Shown here one piece after another: positions 43,601-60,445 of a stretch of 64,000 nucleotides of DNA. How positions within the stretch are numbered: position 1 is the first letter of the stretch; each line of letters starts with the position of its first letter. A program made the position numbers and the translations under genes. A model generated the notes under the pieces. The model made no database searches. It saw nothing but the letters and a program-made list of their open reading frames with translations, and had not been told where the DNA came from. Origin of the DNA: Sulfitobacter guttiformis (lineage in GTDB: Bacteria > Pseudomonadota > Alphaproteobacteria > Rhodobacterales > Rhodobacteraceae); NCBI RefSeq assembly GCF_003610455.1, contig NZ_RAQK01000001.1, forward strand, positions 682,001 to 746,000. The letters run 5' to 3'.

Positions 43601-44035
43601 TCAGGCTCCCAAAACGTGGCGGATCACATAAACCGTGATCGCAGTAGTAACCATGAAAGTGAGGGTTGCGACGATCGAGCGTGGCGACAGGCGCGCCATC
43701 CCGCAAACACCGTGACCCGATGTACAGCCCGAACCAAATGTAACACCTATCCCCACAATAAAACCGCCAACCACAAGCATTGTCGCAGAAGTCGGCACCT
43801 GCACCGCAGGCATTTGCCCTGTCAGCAACGCCACTAAAGGCGGCCCCGAAATCATGCCCGCCAGCACCGCGGCACGCCATGACCAGTCCGGCAGATTTAC
43901 GGGGTGGAACACGCCAGCAAGAATTCCTGTCGCTCCCATGACACGGCCCATCGTCGCCATCAAAAGTACGGCTGCAAGGCCGATCAGGGCCCCGCCAACA
44001 AGCGACTGAACCGGTGTGAAAACCGTCTCTATCAT
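43601..44035 (-). CDS. YeeE/YedE-family membrane protein, half-transporter
   Basis: This 144-aa membrane protein has several spans and the motif GVTFGSGCTSGHGVCGMARL, with two cysteines typical of the sulfur-carrying YeeE family. I chose the ATG at 44035, which overlaps the stop of the DUF2892 gene in TGATG. It forms a pair with the next gene; two-part YeeE proteins occur with BigR/Blh/SQR/ETHE1 clusters in other proteobacteria. Confidence 0.9.
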   Translation of the reverse strand: MIETVFTPVQSLVGGALIGLAAVLLMATMGRVMGATGILAGVFHPVNLPDWSWRAAVLAGMISGPPLVALLTGQMPAVQVPTSATMLVVGGFIVGIGVTFGSGCTSGHGVCGMARLSPRSIVATLTFMVTTAITVYVIRHVLGA

Positions 44036-48749: not shown

Positions 48750-49910
48750 TTACACAGGAATAACGATTTTCTGATCGTGCTCGGGCGCCTCGAGCGGAAG
48801 ATGATTTTCCTCCAGTACAAGGATATTTTCCGCACCAATGATATCACTTTTCGTCTTATAGCCGATGACATTCTCAACGGGCATATCCAAATGGCGTGCC
48901 AGCAGCATCGTCTCTTCTGACGAAAAATTTGTCAGGCCGCGCGCAATTTCCTCGCCAAGTTCGTTATAAACATGCAGCACATCGCCCTTCATGAAATCCC
49001 CCTGCAGCGAGATAATGTCCATCCGGCTGATGCCGCGCTTCTTTTTGACAACTTCTTCGGCAATTTCGTTTGATACGACAAGCGTACCACTGACTTGCAA
49101 GCGGTTGCTAAGCCAGACTTTCAGCGGCGACGCTGTCTCGCCCCGCACAAGACAGCGGGTGAACCGCCGCTCTTTATTGAGTACGGAAGATACGGGGCGT
49201 TCAATGATGCCCTCGGCGATGATCGTCTCGACGCCAGCATTCTGCGCCATGTTTGCCGCATGCATCTTGGTAAGCATGCCCCCGCTCCCCAATGCACTGA
49301 TACCGGTCGTTGATTCCAGATGCTCGCTGACGTCTTCGATTTCATGAATGAAAACTGCGTCCGGATCTGACGGGTCGCGGTCATAAAGACCCTCGACACT
49401 GGTCAGAATGATCAGTTCGTCCGCCTCTACCATTTGCGCCACTTTGGCTGACAAACGGTCATTGTCACCCACACGAAGGTCACGTGTGGCGATTGAGTCG
49501 TTCTCGTTGATGATTGGCATGATGTCGTTTTCGAACAATCTCAGCATGGTGTTTTTAATGTTCAGAAAACGGCGGCGCTCTTCCATATCTTCGACGGTCA
49601 CCAGCATCTGCGCCACCTCCAGATCGTACTCTGATGCGACCTGCCGGTAGGCGTTCATCAGCAGCGGCTGACCACATGCAGCGGCGGCCTGTTTGTCCAG
49701 AACACCCGCGTCTTCGGGCCGTTTTCCGACCATATTCAACCCCAGCGCAACCGAGCCGGACGAGGTCAAAATGATGTTATGGCCCTCACGTTGAAGCTGT
49801 GCGAGATCGCTCAGAAGACCGTTCATAAAAGCGTAGCGCAGGGTAAGGTTATCACTATTGGCAAGCAGGCTTGATCCGATTTTTACGACGATTTTTTTCT
49901 TCGTAGACAT
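48750..49910 (-). CDS. proB: glutamate 5-kinase
   Basis: ProB, 386 aa, phosphorylates glutamate in the first step of proline synthesis. The amino-acid kinase domain starts KKKIVVKIGSSLLANSDNL and contains ILTSSGSVALG and INENDSIATRDLRVGDNDRL. A PUA domain occupies the last 80-100 residues (EIARGLTNFSSEETMLLARH). I chose the ATG at 49910, preceded by GGAG; a much longer frame to 50312 runs over the divergent proC gene. It is not next to obgE, the usual neighbour in related bacteria. Confidence 0.95.
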   Translation of the reverse strand: MSTKKKIVVKIGSSLLANSDNLTLRYAFMNGLLSDLAQLQREGHNIILTSSGSVALGLNMVGKRPEDAGVLDKQAAAACGQPLLMNAYRQVASEYDLEVAQMLVTVEDMEERRRFLNIKNTMLRLFENDIMPIINENDSIATRDLRVGDNDRLSAKVAQMVEADELIILTSVEGLYDRDPSDPDAVFIHEIEDVSEHLESTTGISALGSGGMLTKMHAANMAQNAGVETIIAEGIIERPVSSVLNKERRFTRCLVRGETASPLKVWLSNRLQVSGTLVVSNEIAEEVVKKKRGISRMDIISLQGDFMKGDVLHVYNELGEEIARGLTNFSSEETMLLARHLDMPVENVIGYKTKSDIIGAENILVLEENHLPLEAPEHDQKIVIPV

Positions 49911-52275: not shown

Positions 52276-52833
52276 ACGCTGAGTTTACGCAACATGCCAT
52301 GTCTCCGCTGGAGCGGCCTTTTCGTACAGTCAGATGAGAACGCAGTTTAAAAGTCGGGGCAGCAACCCTCGCCCCGACCGCCCTGACTTGCGCCGCGATG
52401 CTCTTGCCTCTCACGAAGAGAAGTTTTTCATTCGCGGGAATACTTACCTTTTTGGCTATGCCCAACGTGTGTCATCGAAAACAGCATGAGCTCGTCTTTG
52501 AATTAATCGCGGCAGATTTCTTTTTGCCGTCGCCTCAACAGTAAATTCATATAGTTCCTCACAGCAGGCCAGATCACTTAACACCAAAAAGAGGCCCCGA
52601 TCAGTGGAACAGTTCCGGTTAAACCCCCAGCGATATCCAGACGTTTTCGTTGCCGAGGAATGTTCGCCCGAGCGTGCCAACCTGCATCACAGGTTCCGCG
52701 AAACTCGGTCCGCAAAAATCTGTGAGATGCCCCCCTTGAAAAGCGATCAGAGCGACCCCCATTTCAATCTACTGGCACAGGGTGCGCGTATCACATGCCC
52801 CCCTTGGCCTGCTATTACAGGACATCCAACATC
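52276..52833. other. intergenic region after proA
   Basis: This stretch of about 560 bp holds the hairpin at 52353-52378 and the probable promoter of the antiporter gene. Overlapping short frames on both strands (for example 52456-52680 minus and 52604-52954 plus) have no recognised domains and I do not call them. Confidence 0.45.
52353..52378 (+). terminator. inverted repeat, possible terminator of proC-proA
   Basis: A perfect 8-bp stem GTCGGGGC / GCCCCGAC with a 10-nt loop lies 77 bp past the proA stop. No T run follows, so a factor-dependent or processing role is possible. Confidence 0.45.
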
Positions 52834-53769
52834 GTGGATTATCTCCAACTTATTCTTGGCTTCGCCCTGCTGGTTGCAGGTGGCGAGGCATTGGTGCGCG
52901 GCGCAGTATCGGTCGCCTCAAAATTCGGGGTCTCCCCCCTCCTTATTGGCCTGACACTCGTCGGCTTCGGCACATCAACGCCGGAACTGGTTACAAGTTT
53001 GCAGGCGGCGTGGTCCGGCTTTCCCGGCATCGCTGTCGGTAATGTCGTCGGCTCCAACATCGCAAACGTCCTGCTTATCCTTGGCGCCGCTGCCTTGATC
53101 GCGCCGATAGCGATTGATCCTGTTGCATTCCGCCGCGATGGTACTGCCCTTGCGATCGCGACCGTGCTGGCCGTTGGCGTAATACTCTTCGGCGTTTTGG
53201 ATCGCTGGTTGGGTGCCGTTCTGCTGGGTGCGTTGATCGTCTATATCGGGATCGCCTACCGGACCGATGTCGCCTCGCCCGTGCAGGACGAGACACCTGA
53301 CACTCTCGCAAAGTCCGCCTCAGTGTGGCCTGCCCTCGGTCTAGCCTTCGGGGGGATCGCAATCACCGTGCTGGGCGCGCGCCTGACAGTTGATGCAGCG
53401 GTATCGCTCGCACTGGTGTGGGGGATGAGCGAGACAGTCGTCGGACTGACAGTTGTGGCAGTAGGCACGTCCCTGCCGGAACTGGTCACTTCTGTTATGG
53501 CCGCACTTCGACGCGAATCCGGATTGGCATTCGGCAACGTTATCGGATCGAATATCTATAATATCCTCGGGATCATGGGCGTTACCGCACTTGTACAACC
53601 CATTCCGATACCCCCCCAAATCGCCCAGTTCGACGTGTGGGTCATGGCCGCTACAACGGTTGTGCTGATCCTTGCGGTGATTGCATGGCGCCGGATCGGT
53701 CGGGCCACTGGGTTTGCTTTCGTCGCCGCCTATGCTGCCTACACTGGATGGCTGATAGCCGGAATATAA
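52834..53769 (+). CDS. calcium/sodium antiporter (CaCA family, YrbG-like)
   Basis: This protein of about 311 aa has ten hydrophobic helices and two inverted alpha-repeats: GLTLVGFGTSTPELVTSLQA with GNVVGSNIANVLLILG, and GLTVVAVGTSLPELVTSVMA with GNVIGSNIYNILGIMG. These carry the ion-binding acidic residues. It exchanges Na+ (or H+) for Ca2+. I prefer the GTG at 52834 (VDYLQLILGFALL), with AGGA upstream; an in-frame ATG at 52795 would add 13 residues that are not membrane-like. Confidence 0.92.
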   Translation: MDYLQLILGFALLVAGGEALVRGAVSVASKFGVSPLLIGLTLVGFGTSTPELVTSLQAAWSGFPGIAVGNVVGSNIANVLLILGAAALIAPIAIDPVAFRRDGTALAIATVLAVGVILFGVLDRWLGAVLLGALIVYIGIAYRTDVASPVQDETPDTLAKSASVWPALGLAFGGIAITVLGARLTVDAAVSLALVWGMSETVVGLTVVAVGTSLPELVTSVMAALRRESGLAFGNVIGSNIYNILGIMGVTALVQPIPIPPQIAQFDVWVMAATTVVLILAVIAWRRIGRATGFAFVAAYAAYTGWLIAGI

Positions 53770-57218: not shown

Positions 57219-57548
57219 AGTGCGTCACCGTATCCTTTCTCGTTGTTCACAGGATTTCACGCAAAACGCGGAATAAACTTCACTGCATCACCACCATTAA
57301 ATCACTACGAAATGTGCATTTTTCAAGCTACGCACAAATATAACTCAGATGCGGACAGCGAAATCACACTGATTATTCTCACGCACATCTTGCGGAGTTC
57401 AGGCCCCAACCATATCTGACAAATTCAAGGCATGCTATCCGCCGTCAGGAGTTGTCCGGTTGGACTGCGTCAGCACTTTCCTAGCCCTCGAATTGCAGGG
57501 TTCCAGCCAATCCTCCGCCTCTTTGAGTCCGGTCCGGGATTTGCACGA
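57219..57548. other. intergenic region upstream of the secDF leader
   Basis: About 330 bp between divergent genes. It must hold the promoter of the secDF leader operon. I saw no gene; a frame from 57432 merges with the leader but has no good ribosome-binding site at its upstream ATG. Confidence 0.4.
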
Positions 57549-57938
57549 ATGACTGGTATGCCGTCCGCGATGACAGTTAGCGTTTCTGAAGTGCGCCGTA
57601 ACGTGGTTCGTTTGCTCACCCTGTTGAGCTTTGCATTGGCACTGCTGGTTGCGCAGGGGCCTTATGGCCTGAAGCAAGCACAAAACACCGATGCTATAGC
57701 GCACGAGTTGTCGAGCATGGCATCGGTCAGGGCATCTGCATATGACCGTGTTGCGAGTGACAGGAAACCAAGCCCGCTTTTCGCTGACGATGACACACCA
57801 AATTTCATCGCAGGCCTAACAGCGGACCTTCAACACCCTGTCTCTGGCACTACACAGGCCATGCGCGCCTGTGACACTTCAAAATCATCTTTGCTGTCGA
57901 ATATCTTGCCCCCCGTTCGGGGGCCGCCTGCGGTCTGA
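57549..57938 (+). CDS. candidate secretion-monitoring arrest peptide upstream of secDF (R-G-P-P motif)
   Basis: This 129-aa leader has a hydrophobic N-terminal segment (residues 19-38, VVRLLTLLSFALALLVAQG), enough to target it to the Sec machinery. A polar, poorly conserved-looking middle part follows. It ends LLSNILPPVRGPPAV, with Arg124-Gly125-Pro126-Pro127 near the C-terminus. R-A-P-P-type arrest peptides (ApdP of alphaproteobacteria, ApdA of actinobacteria) lie in the same position upstream of secDF and stall at such motifs. I infer the same role: stalling when secretion is slow, which would raise secDF translation. The start codon is uncertain (57549, 57558 or 57570). Confidence 0.7.
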   Translation: MTGMPSAMTVSVSEVRRNVVRLLTLLSFALALLVAQGPYGLKQAQNTDAIAHELSSMASVRASAYDRVASDRKPSPLFADDDTPNFIAGLTADLQHPVSGTTQAMRACDTSKSSLLSNILPPVRGPPAV

Positions 57939-57980
57939 CCCTAAACAGTCAAACCCTTATTTTCAGGCTATCAAGGATAT
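57901..57980 (+). promoter_or_regulatory. candidate anti-Shine-Dalgarno structure controlling secDF
   Basis: ATATCTTG (57901-57908, inside the leader) can pair with CAAGGATAT (57972-57980), which contains the secDF ribosome-binding site, over 8 bp with one bulged G. A G/C hairpin (CCCCC 57910-57914, GTTC loop, GGGGG 57919-57923) sits just inside and overlaps the R-G-P-P codons. A ribosome stalled at 57918-57929 would melt the G/C hairpin and disturb the outer helix. Pairing was found by eye. Confidence 0.4.
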
Positions 57981-57985
57981 CCACT

Positions 57986-60445
57986 ATGCGTCGACCAAAA
58001 TGGGTCATCGCGACCTATGCCGCATTGCTTCTTCTCGCAGTTGCGGCCGCTGTCCCGAACTTCCTACCAGCGCAGATGCGCAACACACTGCCGCCTTGGG
58101 TCTCGCGCGAGGTTGTATCGCTCGGCCTTGACCTTCGGGGCGGTGCGCATCTGTTACTTGCCGTAAACCAAGAAGATCTTTCTGCTTCACGGATGCAGGA
58201 CATGCGCGAAACGATCGTGGCCGAGATGAGGCAACTCGGTCTGGATCCTGCGACGTTGCGCAGCAACGGTACTGCATTGACGGTACCTCACAGCGACACG
58301 CTCAAGGCTGCATTGCAATCGGCACTAACCCGCGACGTACAGCCGGGACAGGCGCCCGACTTCACAGTTGAGACATCACAAGGCACACTGCGTCTGAAAT
58401 TGAGCAACTCAGCGCTCGACCGCGCATCGACAGACGCGGCAGACCGTAGCATCGAGGTCATTCGCAACCGCGTAGATCAGGCCGGCGTTTCAGAGCCGGT
58501 CATCAGCCGTGTTGGCACAGATCGTATTCTGGTCCAGATGCCCGGTGTCGAGAACCCTGCGCAACTGCGCGCACTTTTAGGATCGACCGCAAAAATGAGC
58601 TTCCACATGGTCGCTTCCGCCGCCGGTCCGGGCATCTCGATGCTACCTCTGAGTGACGGATCCGGCACGATTGCAGTTCAGGATGCCATTGCTCTGTCAG
58701 GTGACCTATTGGAGCATGCAGCAGCCGCATTTGAACAGGACACAGGACGCCCCATGGTCACCTTCGGTTTTGACCGGCAAGGGGCTGCCGCCTTCGCAGG
58801 GATAACGGCGGATAATATAGGTCGGCAATTCGCCGTTGTTCTGGACGGCAAGGTTCTCACGGCGCCTGTTATCCAGCAGGCAATCCCTGGTGGACAAGGC
58901 CAGATCACCGGCAATTTCAGCGTGGAGGAGGCGCAAACGCTGGGTGTCTTGCTAACTTCTGGCGCGCTACCCGCTTCATTCGATGTGGTCGAGGAGCGCA
59001 GCGTGGGGGCCTCCCTTGGCAGCGATTCTATCCGCTCAGGGCTGGTGACGGGTGCCGCGGGACTTGCCCTTGTGGTGATAATGATGGTCGGTCTTTATGG
59101 CGCCTGGGGGCTGCTCGCTACCGGTTTTCTCGCGCTCAACGTGATGCTGACACTCACTGCAATGGGGATGTTGGGTGCCACGCTGACACTGCCCGGTATC
59201 GCCGGCATAATCTTGTGCCTCGGGATCGCAGTTGACAGCAACATCCTGATATTCAGCCGTATACGAGAGCAGACCAGAGCGGGCGCCACCGCGATAAAAG
59301 CGCTGACAAAAGGTTATGGCCAAGCTTGGGCGACGATCCTTGATGCCAATATCACGACACTATTGGCGATGGTCCTGCTGTTTTTGTTCGGCGCAGGACC
59401 AATACGCGGTTTTGCGATCACGATGAGTCTGGGGATTATGATTTCCATGTTCACAGCCGTAGTCCTCATGCGCTTTGTGATGGAGGCAATCGTACGGCAT
59501 CGCAGGCCAGCACGGCTCGAAATTGCACCGGTGTTCGGCACAGTGCGCGCCCCTGCTGCCTTTTCGTTCATGCGGCGTGGCGGCCTTGCGCTGGCCGCCT
59601 CGGCGGGTCTGTCTGTTGGCGCGCTGGCCGTGCTCGTTTATCCGGGCCCTACCCTCGGCATTGATTTCACCGGTGGAGTTCAGATGCTGCTCCGATCTGA
59701 TGCACCTGTGCCGCTGTCTGAATTACGCACAGCTCTCGCTGCACAAGTCACTGGTGATGCCAGCCTACAAGCGTTCGAAGACGCACGCGAGGCGTTGATA
59801 CGTTTACAGGGTGAGGCCAGCCAAGCGACTGTAGCAGCCGTAGAGCAAGCCGTAGCCAGAGTTGCACCAAATGCCAGCTTTGCCCAAATCGATCTGGTTG
59901 GCCCGACAGTCAGCGGCGAACTCGCGATGACTGGCGTGCTCGCACTCGGCCTCGCTGTGCTTGGTATGTTGTTTTACATTTGGGTCCGGTTCGAATGGCA
60001 TTTTGCAGTCAGCGCTATCGCAGTGCTGTTTCTTGATGTGACAAAGACACTTGGTGTAATTGCCCTGACCGGATGGGAGGTAAACCTGACGACAATTGTC
60101 GCCCTGCTGACGCTCATCGGGTATTCGGTAAACGACAAGGTCGTCGTTTACGACCGGATTCGCGAAACCCTTGCTCAGGGGGGCACCAGACCTCTGGCCG
60201 AAGTGATCGATAGCAGTCTCAATCAGGTTCTTGCCCGATGTCTGTTCACCTCCGGCACGACACTGCTCGCAATTATTCCAATGGCGGTTTGGGGTGGCCC
60301 CGCAGTGTCAGGATTTGCCTGGCCGCTAATCGCGGGTGTGATCATTGCGACAGCGTCATCTTTGTTTATCGCCGGGCCCGTTTTGCACTTTCTCTCGCGA
60401 ACCAATGGCATCGCGATAACACCTGCCCTGTCACCTGCGGATTAA
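57986..60445 (+). CDS. secDF: fused protein translocase subunit SecDF
   Basis: This 819-aa fusion of SecD and SecF pulls exported proteins across the membrane using the proton gradient. The SecD half has the family motif SLGLDLRGGAHLLLAVN, periplasmic P1 domains (VIRNRVDQAGVSEPVISRVG) and six membrane helices with LCLGIAVDSNILIFSRIREQ. The SecF half starts near residue 530 with LGIDFTGGVQMLLR and has LIGYSVNDKVVVYDRIRETL. SD sequence AAGGAT lies 7 bases before the ATG. It follows the arrest-peptide-like leader by 47 bp. Many alphaproteobacteria also have separate secD and secF, so this may be an additional inducible copy. Confidence 0.95.
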   Translation: MRRPKWVIATYAALLLLAVAAAVPNFLPAQMRNTLPPWVSREVVSLGLDLRGGAHLLLAVNQEDLSASRMQDMRETIVAEMRQLGLDPATLRSNGTALTVPHSDTLKAALQSALTRDVQPGQAPDFTVETSQGTLRLKLSNSALDRASTDAADRSIEVIRNRVDQAGVSEPVISRVGTDRILVQMPGVENPAQLRALLGSTAKMSFHMVASAAGPGISMLPLSDGSGTIAVQDAIALSGDLLEHAAAAFEQDTGRPMVTFGFDRQGAAAFAGITADNIGRQFAVVLDGKVLTAPVIQQAIPGGQGQITGNFSVEEAQTLGVLLTSGALPASFDVVEERSVGASLGSDSIRSGLVTGAAGLALVVIMMVGLYGAWGLLATGFLALNVMLTLTAMGMLGATLTLPGIAGIILCLGIAVDSNILIFSRIREQTRAGATAIKALTKGYGQAWATILDANITTLLAMVLLFLFGAGPIRGFAITMSLGIMISMFTAVVLMRFVMEAIVRHRRPARLEIAPVFGTVRAPAAFSFMRRGGLALAASAGLSVGALAVLVYPGPTLGIDFTGGVQMLLRSDAPVPLSELRTALAAQVTGDASLQAFEDAREALIRLQGEASQATVAAVEQAVARVAPNASFAQIDLVGPTVSGELAMTGVLALGLAVLGMLFYIWVRFEWHFAVSAIAVLFLDVTKTLGVIALTGWEVNLTTIVALLTLIGYSVNDKVVVYDRIRETLAQGGTRPLAEVIDSSLNQVLARCLFTSGTTLLAIIPMAVWGGPAVSGFAWPLIAGVIIATASSLFIAGPVLHFLSRTNGIAITPALSPAD

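Follow-up and report, generated by a model that had tools for sequence, protein, structure and literature searches.

A candidate ApdP-type arrest peptide upstream of a second secDF gene in Sulfitobacter guttiformis and a predicted RNA junction at the secDF2 ribosome-binding site

Results

An upstream open frame precedes a second, fused secDF gene

In the window, by which we mean the whole 64,000-nt stretch of Sulfitobacter guttiformis DNA analysed in this work, a small upstream open reading frame (uORF) occupies positions 57549 to 57938 of the plus strand, and its stop codon lies 47 nt before the ATG of a larger gene on the same strand (57986 to 60445, 819 amino acids). The product of the latter matches the Pfam families SecD_SecF_C, SecDF_P1_head, SecD_1st and Sec_GG and scores above the threshold set for NF009583, the NCBIfam model of the SecDF subfamily, as a full-length fused SecDF. 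Since matches to separate secD and secF genes are found side by side on contig C2 of the same genome, the fused gene of the window constitutes a second secDF copy, hereafter called secDF2. Its distribution is patchy: a copy, 73–100 % identical, is present in four of 58 genomes of the genus, and matches with E ≤ 1e-200 were obtained in eight of 394 sampled genomes of the family, S. guttiformis itself being counted.

The SecF half of the protein carries a distinctive sequence, LD[VI]TKT, at the position where the housekeeping SecF of the genus reads HDV(I/V/L)LT. This motif was recovered in 72 of 89 locus rows (L002 to L118, duplicates included, representing the best 80 of 391 relatives plus the genome loci), the remaining 17 being unmatched by the expression used. 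Its lysine sits one helix turn from an aspartate that we take to be part of the ion path, and the motif may mark a different ion coupling.

Translation of the uORF yields 129 residues ending in SNILPPVRGPPAV and the stop codon, that is, in RGPPAV-stop. The initial annotation had described a 129-residue frame with a hydrophobic segment and this terminus, 47 nt before a fused secDF, all of which was confirmed by translation, hydropathy and the Pfam/NCBIfam matches. The start of the frame is uncertain: ATG 57570 (57570 to 57572) is likelier than ATG 57549, because 16 aligned relatives all begin there (M8, the sole invariant methionine in the 17-sequence alignment A3), and the product may therefore comprise 122 amino acids. 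A hydrophobic targeting segment, LLTLLSFALALLVA, placed by residue count at 57612 to 57653, has a mean hydropathy of 2.68 and, as judged from the hydropathy calculation only, is a candidate signal or signal-anchor sequence. It is separated by a spacer of about 90 residues from the proline expected in the P site. Specifically, the putative arrest core Arg124-Gly125-Pro126-Pro127 is encoded at 57918 to 57929, and the stall is predicted to occur with the Pro126 codon (57924 to 57926) in the P site, by analogy with the toeprints presented for relatives in PMC10987492.

A sequence search with the peptide retrieved no relatives in 59 other genomes, nor in a scan of the genome contigs, and relatives were therefore sought through the downstream SecDF. 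The window peptide and the 16 relatives of A3 have the hydrophobic segment in common, and outside the motif it is 18–28 % identical to them. In four pairs of related uORFs, dN/dS was about 0.25–0.5; a fifth pair, compared out of register, was left out. A loosely conserved D-D-T-P stretch was observed in the middle of the uORF, some 40–50 residues before the stop, in about the part of the chain that would be emerging from the ribosomal tunnel during a stall. A consensus search for a sigma-70 promoter between 57200 and 58050 gave no match, a consensus that says little for this bacterial group.

The C-terminal motif is conserved across loci encoding SecDF2 relatives

Loci were gathered through SecDF2 by taking the best 80 of 391 loci encoding a relative, plus the genome loci. 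After dropping L060 and L077 (matches without a gene start) and seven duplicate junctions, 82 distinct uORF–secDF2 junctions were left. The named relatives among the best 80 are mostly alphaproteobacterial records. Two groups were separated by identity to the window SecDF2, namely a Rhodobacterales-type group (at least 62 %), which also includes records labelled Vreelandella, Pelagibacterium and Oceanibacterium, and a Rhizobiales-type group (about 50 %), which also includes Hyphomicrobium, Parvibaculum and L038, a genome of the window's own family.

Within this set (best 80 of 391 relatives plus genome loci, no minimum frame length), [RHQ][AG]PP was found upstream of secDF2 in all 32 distinct Rhodobacterales-type junctions, the window included: RGPP in 26, HGPP in three, RAPP in two and QGPP in one. 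The motif is followed by two residues before the stop in 28 junctions and by four residues in the other four, and the frame ends 38–48 nt from secDF2. In the Rhizobiales-type group, 46 of 50 distinct junctions carry the motif (RAPP 29, RGPP 17), with the frame ending 73–140 nt from secDF2; as for the four misses, L090 has an RGPP farther from the stop, and none was found in L038, L105 and L112. All four copies of the same genus end in LPPVRGPPAV-stop. The initial annotation had proposed the conservation of a C-terminal R-x-P-P in homologous loci as a check of the arrest-peptide reading, and these counts, together with the divergence of the rest of the peptide, speak in its favour. It had also presented the peptide as a member with Gly in place of Ala; RGPP is indeed present, but it is nothing special, being the commonest form in the Rhodobacterales-type group and occurring in 17 of the 50 Rhizobiales-type junctions.

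Some further observations concern individual loci. HGPP occurs in L056, L057 and L114 and QGPP in L058, and L056, L057 and L058 differ in the preceding sequence (LRPxx). Close cassettes are found in records labelled Vreelandella neptunia (L042), Pelagibacterium lentulum (L055) and as a Sphingomonadales MAG (L049); the uORF DNA of L042 is 96 % identical to that of L043 (Oceaniovalibus), and the L049 junction is identical to that of L048. Judging from these sequences, the three cassettes may reflect horizontal transfer, contamination or misbinning. Two other open segments of the window, 43716 to 44009 (plus strand) and 49555 to 49776 (minus strand), have RAPP within their last nine residues and show no sign of being genes.

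A Na+/Ca2+ exchanger gene usually lies upstream of the cassette

A tblastn comparison of the Rhodobacterales-type loci (best 80 of 391 relatives plus genome loci) revealed, for 29 of the 32 junctions, a gene similar to the L048 exchanger that closely precedes the uORF and has the same orientation. L048:1660-2598 and L042:1588-2598 are examples of such a gene, and three examples were confirmed as PF01699 Na_Ca_ex. The exchanger was not seen just upstream in L003, for which only 91 nt of upstream sequence are available, in L041 and in the window. The distance from the exchanger end to secDF2 is 608 nt in L036 and 363–482 nt elsewhere, and in L042 the stop codon of the exchanger and the start codon of the uORF share the sequence ATGA, suggesting that the two may be translationally coupled. 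Downstream of secDF2, a CitMHS/TrkA_C transporter gene follows in 10 of 32 junctions, some of the contigs being short.

The window retains CNNM and DUF6635 genes that are found upstream in several relatives, and an exchanger homologue, 49 % identical, lies at about 52822 to 53712, 4–5 kb away; on these grounds, the window operon has apparently lost its exchanger gene, or the gene has moved elsewhere. The link of the secDF2 cassette to ions is suggestive only.

A predicted RNA junction of the uORF end and the gap would cover the secDF2 ribosome-binding site

Minimum free energy (MFE) folding of the window RNA predicts that the arrest codons, the stop codon and the gap form a three-way junction, the closing helix of which, H1, would hide the secDF2 ribosome-binding site (RBS; AAGGA, 57973 to 57977). 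All the elements lie on the plus strand. The 5′ arm of H1, an anti-Shine–Dalgarno (SD) element within 57899 to 57907 (57899-57900 and 57902-57907), lies in the codons Asn118-Ile119-Leu120, four to six codons before the Arg of the motif, and pairs with the 3′ arm at 57974 to 57981. The hairpin H4 (57908 to 57924; 57908-57913 with 57919-57924) involves the Leu-Pro-Pro-Val-Arg-Gly codons, H2 (57926 to 57968; 57926-57930 with 57964-57968) pairs the Pro-Pro codons with the gap, and H3 (57932 to 57955; 57932-57939 with 57948-57955) pairs the Val codon and the stop codon with the gap, with one C-A mismatch in the window.

When six sequences were folded singly, the junction appeared in five (z of -2.25 for the window, -5.05 for L053, -2.83 for L042, -4.85 for L059 and -4.22 for L051) and was absent from L039 (z of -0.93). 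Across the MFE folds of the 32 Rhodobacterales-type loci, H3 was present in 30, H2 in 29, H4 in 22 and H1 in 21, so that H1 is missing from 11; all four helices occur together in 19, the window among these. RNAalifold, run on the sequence alignment, found most of H3 and did not find H1, H2 or H4. An Rfam search of 57300 to 58200 gave no match with E up to 1. A role of H3 as an intrinsic terminator was considered and is not supported, no plus-strand terminator match being found there.

Tree-aware covariation is confined to helix H3

Covariation was analysed on alignment A2, which contains 28 of the 32 Rhodobacterales-type junctions, aligned by sequence alone, and which also served for RNAalifold; the four junctions with a 4-residue tail (L036, L062, L063 and L065) are left out of it. 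The predicted structure pairs 79.2 % of the alignment cells, compared to 24–41 % when it is slid by one to three columns, and the covariation score (0.138) exceeds that of shuffled alignments (0.104), none of 500 shuffles scoring as high. As relatedness inflates such counts, changes were reconstructed on the SecDF2 tree. For H3, 12 same-branch double changes were found against 5.1 expected (p = 0.0002), seven of them leading from one pair to another. The same tree-aware test on A2 detected no covariation in H1 (one double change against 2.9 expected, p 0.97), in H2 (two against 1.3, p 0.39) or in H4 (one against 1.7, p 0.88). The H1 columns do vary, with 3–8 and 0–7 inferred changes a column, and the absence of covariation is therefore a real weakness of H1, more than a mere lack of power.

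A covariance model, R1, matched the four divergent Rhodobacterales-type junctions outside its training set, L036, L062, L063 and L065 (E 1.8e-8 to 2.9e-6; L061 duplicates L036), the conserved secDF2 start contributing a part of the score. On the Rhizobiales loci its matches were mostly weak, the best being L067 at 8.5e-6. Across 292 genomes of the order, six had a match at E ≤ 0.001, the S. guttiformis genome included. L119 represents a further RGPPAV junction, outside the 82 counted. One of the six matches, L124 (24.5 bits), was set aside, as it has no motif frame and lies beside the end of a housekeeping SecF gene.

Synonymous recoding and stalled-ribosome calculations

The codons of the uORF tail were swapped for synonyms sampled from the SecDF2 codon usage, and the pairing between the RBS and the small gene was recalculated. 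Recoding lowered this pairing from 0.72 to 0.44 on average, the native sequence being higher in 30 of 32 loci (Wilcoxon 1.4e-9) and in all nine clusters at 82 % identity; total energy agreed in seven of the nine. Taken individually, 10 of the 32 loci reached p < 0.05 for RBS pairing and 15 for total energy. On the window alone, the effect was not significant for RBS pairing (p = 0.225) and gave p = 0.015 for total energy. When only the codons before the Arg were recoded, the native sequence was higher in 27 of 32 loci and in 21 of 26 clusters at 90 % identity, while at 82 % seven of nine clusters agreed (sign test p = 0.18, Wilcoxon 0.02); L035, L041 and L064 went in the opposite direction and L056 and L057 showed no effect. 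The placing of H1 over the RBS thus rests on the folding and synonymous-recoding tests, not on covariation.

A ribosome stalled with Pro126 in the P site was then modelled with an assumed footprint of about 57910 to 57940. Folding only the RNA beyond it raised the calculated accessibility of the RBS from 0.27 to 0.56 on average, with an increase in 28 of 32 loci and a decrease in L037, L062, L063 and L065; for the window the change was from 0.23 to 0.52. Allowing the upstream RNA to pair across the ribosome, for which 21 loci were scored, made the gain smaller, the window then moving from 0.19 (free) to 0.34 (stalled), and the gain vanished in several of the 21, such as L046, L041, L005 and L050. 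On 46 of the 50 Rhizobiales loci (L087, L090, L105 and L112 out, L038 absent, the duplicate L079 retained), the stalling calculation moved accessibility from 0.46 to 0.49, with a rise of more than 0.02 in 21 of the 46.

Proposed switch and alternative explanations

The reading that we favour, and consider probable on the strength of the motif and of the modelled RNA, is that an ApdP-type peptide controls the second secDF via an arrest-opened junction hiding its RBS. According to this model, the hydrophobic segment at the N-terminus would target the small protein to the Sec machinery. In the free mRNA, the last uORF codons, the stop and the 47-nt gap would fold into the three-way junction, in which H1 is predicted to pair the secDF2 RBS with codons 118–120. 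If export were slow, the C-terminal RGPP would stall the ribosome with Pro126 in the P site, as suggested by the tested relatives, and the parked ribosome would unfold H4, H2 and H3 and keep the H1 arms apart, so that the RBS would be free and SecDF2 made. Export, by pulling on the peptide, would end the stall, the RNA would refold and SecDF2 would fall. The tight layout, with the stop two or four codons past the motif and 38–48 nt to secDF2, fits the geometry of such a switch. Opening of the junction RNA could also result from ribosomes that simply translate through it or terminate there.

An alternative would retain the stalling peptide and dispense with RBS hiding: secDF2 would be controlled through mRNA stabilisation, translational coupling or Rho exposure, and the fold, with the exception of H3, would be incidental to GC-rich coding. 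The limitation of tree-aware covariation to H3, the loss of H1 from a third of the MFE folds (11/32) and the Rhizobiales loci, where the order of peptide and secDF2 is the same and accessibility barely shifts, are all consistent with this explanation. In addition, the passages of the ApdP discovery paper that deal with ApcA, ApdA and ApdP report that prediction programs gave no hairpin hiding the downstream SD, and propose another mechanism (PMC7897499). The recoding results over 32 loci and the nested structure recurring in single-sequence folds argue against it, and on the whole we regard control without hiding as unlikely, although it deserves serious consideration.

Far less probable is a reading in which the conserved C-terminus reflects an RNA structure signal lying within an open frame and the peptide causes no arrest. 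The nucleotide sequence around the uORF stop is strongly conserved and H3 covaries, as such a signal would have it, but the residues R/H/Q-G/A-P-P are kept through codon changes (both AGG and CGN are used for the Arg), the motif persists at other spacing in the Rhizobiales-type loci, and RGPP peptides have been shown experimentally to stall ribosomes, as described in PMC10987492 and PMC12992588. Finally, a fortuitous open frame that happens to contain RGPP would accord with the lack of sequence relatives of the peptide and with the occurrence of R[AG]PP-xx-stop in the S. guttiformis genome at chance level (10 places versus 12 for a control pattern), but can practically be dismissed in the face of position-conserved motifs in 32 of 32 junctions, compared to a background, for [RHQ][AG]PP within the last 16 residues of open segments of at least 40 codons, of 21 in 8504 segments from the 82 loci and three in 924 window segments excluding the uORF.

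Discussion

The peptide encoded by the uORF is of an already known kind. Sakiyama 2021 gave the name ApdP to the arrest peptide that alphaproteobacteria encode ahead of a presumed secondary secDF (PMC7897499), and, in the survey of Fujiwara 2024, 293 alphaproteobacterial RAPP-like uORFs were classed as ApdP, with the Rhodobacterales among the orders and RGPP among the variants (PMC10987492). RGPP and RAPP are reported to be the most robust arrest cores (Fujiwara 2025; PMC12992588). The window uORF resembles the ApdP of Sinorhizobium medicae, as portrayed there, in being a small alphaproteobacterial frame with an N-terminal hydrophobic segment and a RAPP-like C-terminal motif, directly before a presumed secondary secDF. 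Specifically, it lies on the same strand before a secondary secDF, its segment is seen by hydropathy, its motif is conserved, and its spacer of 90 residues exceeds the 30–40 residues given for such peptides in PMC10987492 and PMC7897499. The arrest-peptide membership proposed by the initial annotation is thus supported by position, targeting segment, spacer and motif, judged against the published description (PMC7897499); by analogy with the tested members, the window peptide very probably stalls its own ribosome, and secDF2 would be under secretion-responsive control. The initial annotation mentioned neither that this secDF is a second copy nor the predicted hiding of its RBS.

Sinorhizobium loci are found among the SecDF2 relatives (about 49 % identity), with RAPP or RGPP uORFs and LD[VI]TKT in common, S. 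medicae itself not being part of the set. Some differences from ApdP emerge: the window-type loci mostly carry RGPP (26/32), whereas the peptide tested from S. medicae carries RAPP; 38–48 nt separate the frame from secDF2 in the Rhodobacterales-type loci, as opposed to about 73–140 in the Rhizobiales loci; and the same calculation predicts an SD-hiding junction in the Rhodobacterales-type loci only.

The VemP arrest sequence differs from RGPP. VemP–SecDF2 of Vibrio is nonetheless alike in that a monitoring substrate precedes a secondary secDF under arrest feedback (PMC7897499, PMC10987492), and there SecDF1 is described as sodium-dependent and SecDF2, under VemP, as proton-dependent (PMC7897499). 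The closest parallel for the RNA part is uDF_RQH_Enterobacterales of Alteromonas naphthalenivorans (Fujiwara 2024), an RGPP peptide with secDF2 downstream, which induces secDF2 and whose arrest was found by experiment to open a stem-loop partly masking the SD (PMC10987492), an arrangement that is predicted here. That system is gammaproteobacterial and has two stem-loops, whereas the window locus would have a three-way junction of arrest codons, stop codon and gap; the two are likened by these features. SecM–SecA of E. coli likewise has a stalled ribosome opening a structure that hides a downstream SD (PMC7897499), with another target gene and RAGP as the SecM arrest core (PMC10987492).

We found no published report of such an SD-hiding junction for these loci in open-licence PubMed Central. 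What appears to be new relative to the literature is therefore the predicted, partly covarying RNA junction, the type of peptide being known. A broader proposal would be that, in the Rhodobacterales, some 40 nt are dual-coded, specifying the arrest residues and also providing the 5′ arm of each of the four helices in the junction that hides the secDF2 start, and that the cassette, which in most cases follows a Na+/Ca2+ exchanger gene, links failing secretion, and perhaps ionic stress, to an alternative SecDF with a differing motif in its SecF half (LD[VI]TKT versus HDVxLT). We offer this proposal tentatively, and as a whole it is rather doubtful.

In conclusion, the Rhodobacterales-type loci bring together a secondary SecDF and a Na+/Ca2+ exchanger. 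The output mechanism of ApdP was left open by its discoverers, and the junction provides a specific predicted structure that is simple to mutate and that combines arrest site and switch in overlapping sequence. The comparison of the two groups of loci suggests that a single family of peptides may act through RNA output modules that differ between the Rhodobacterales and the Rhizobiales.
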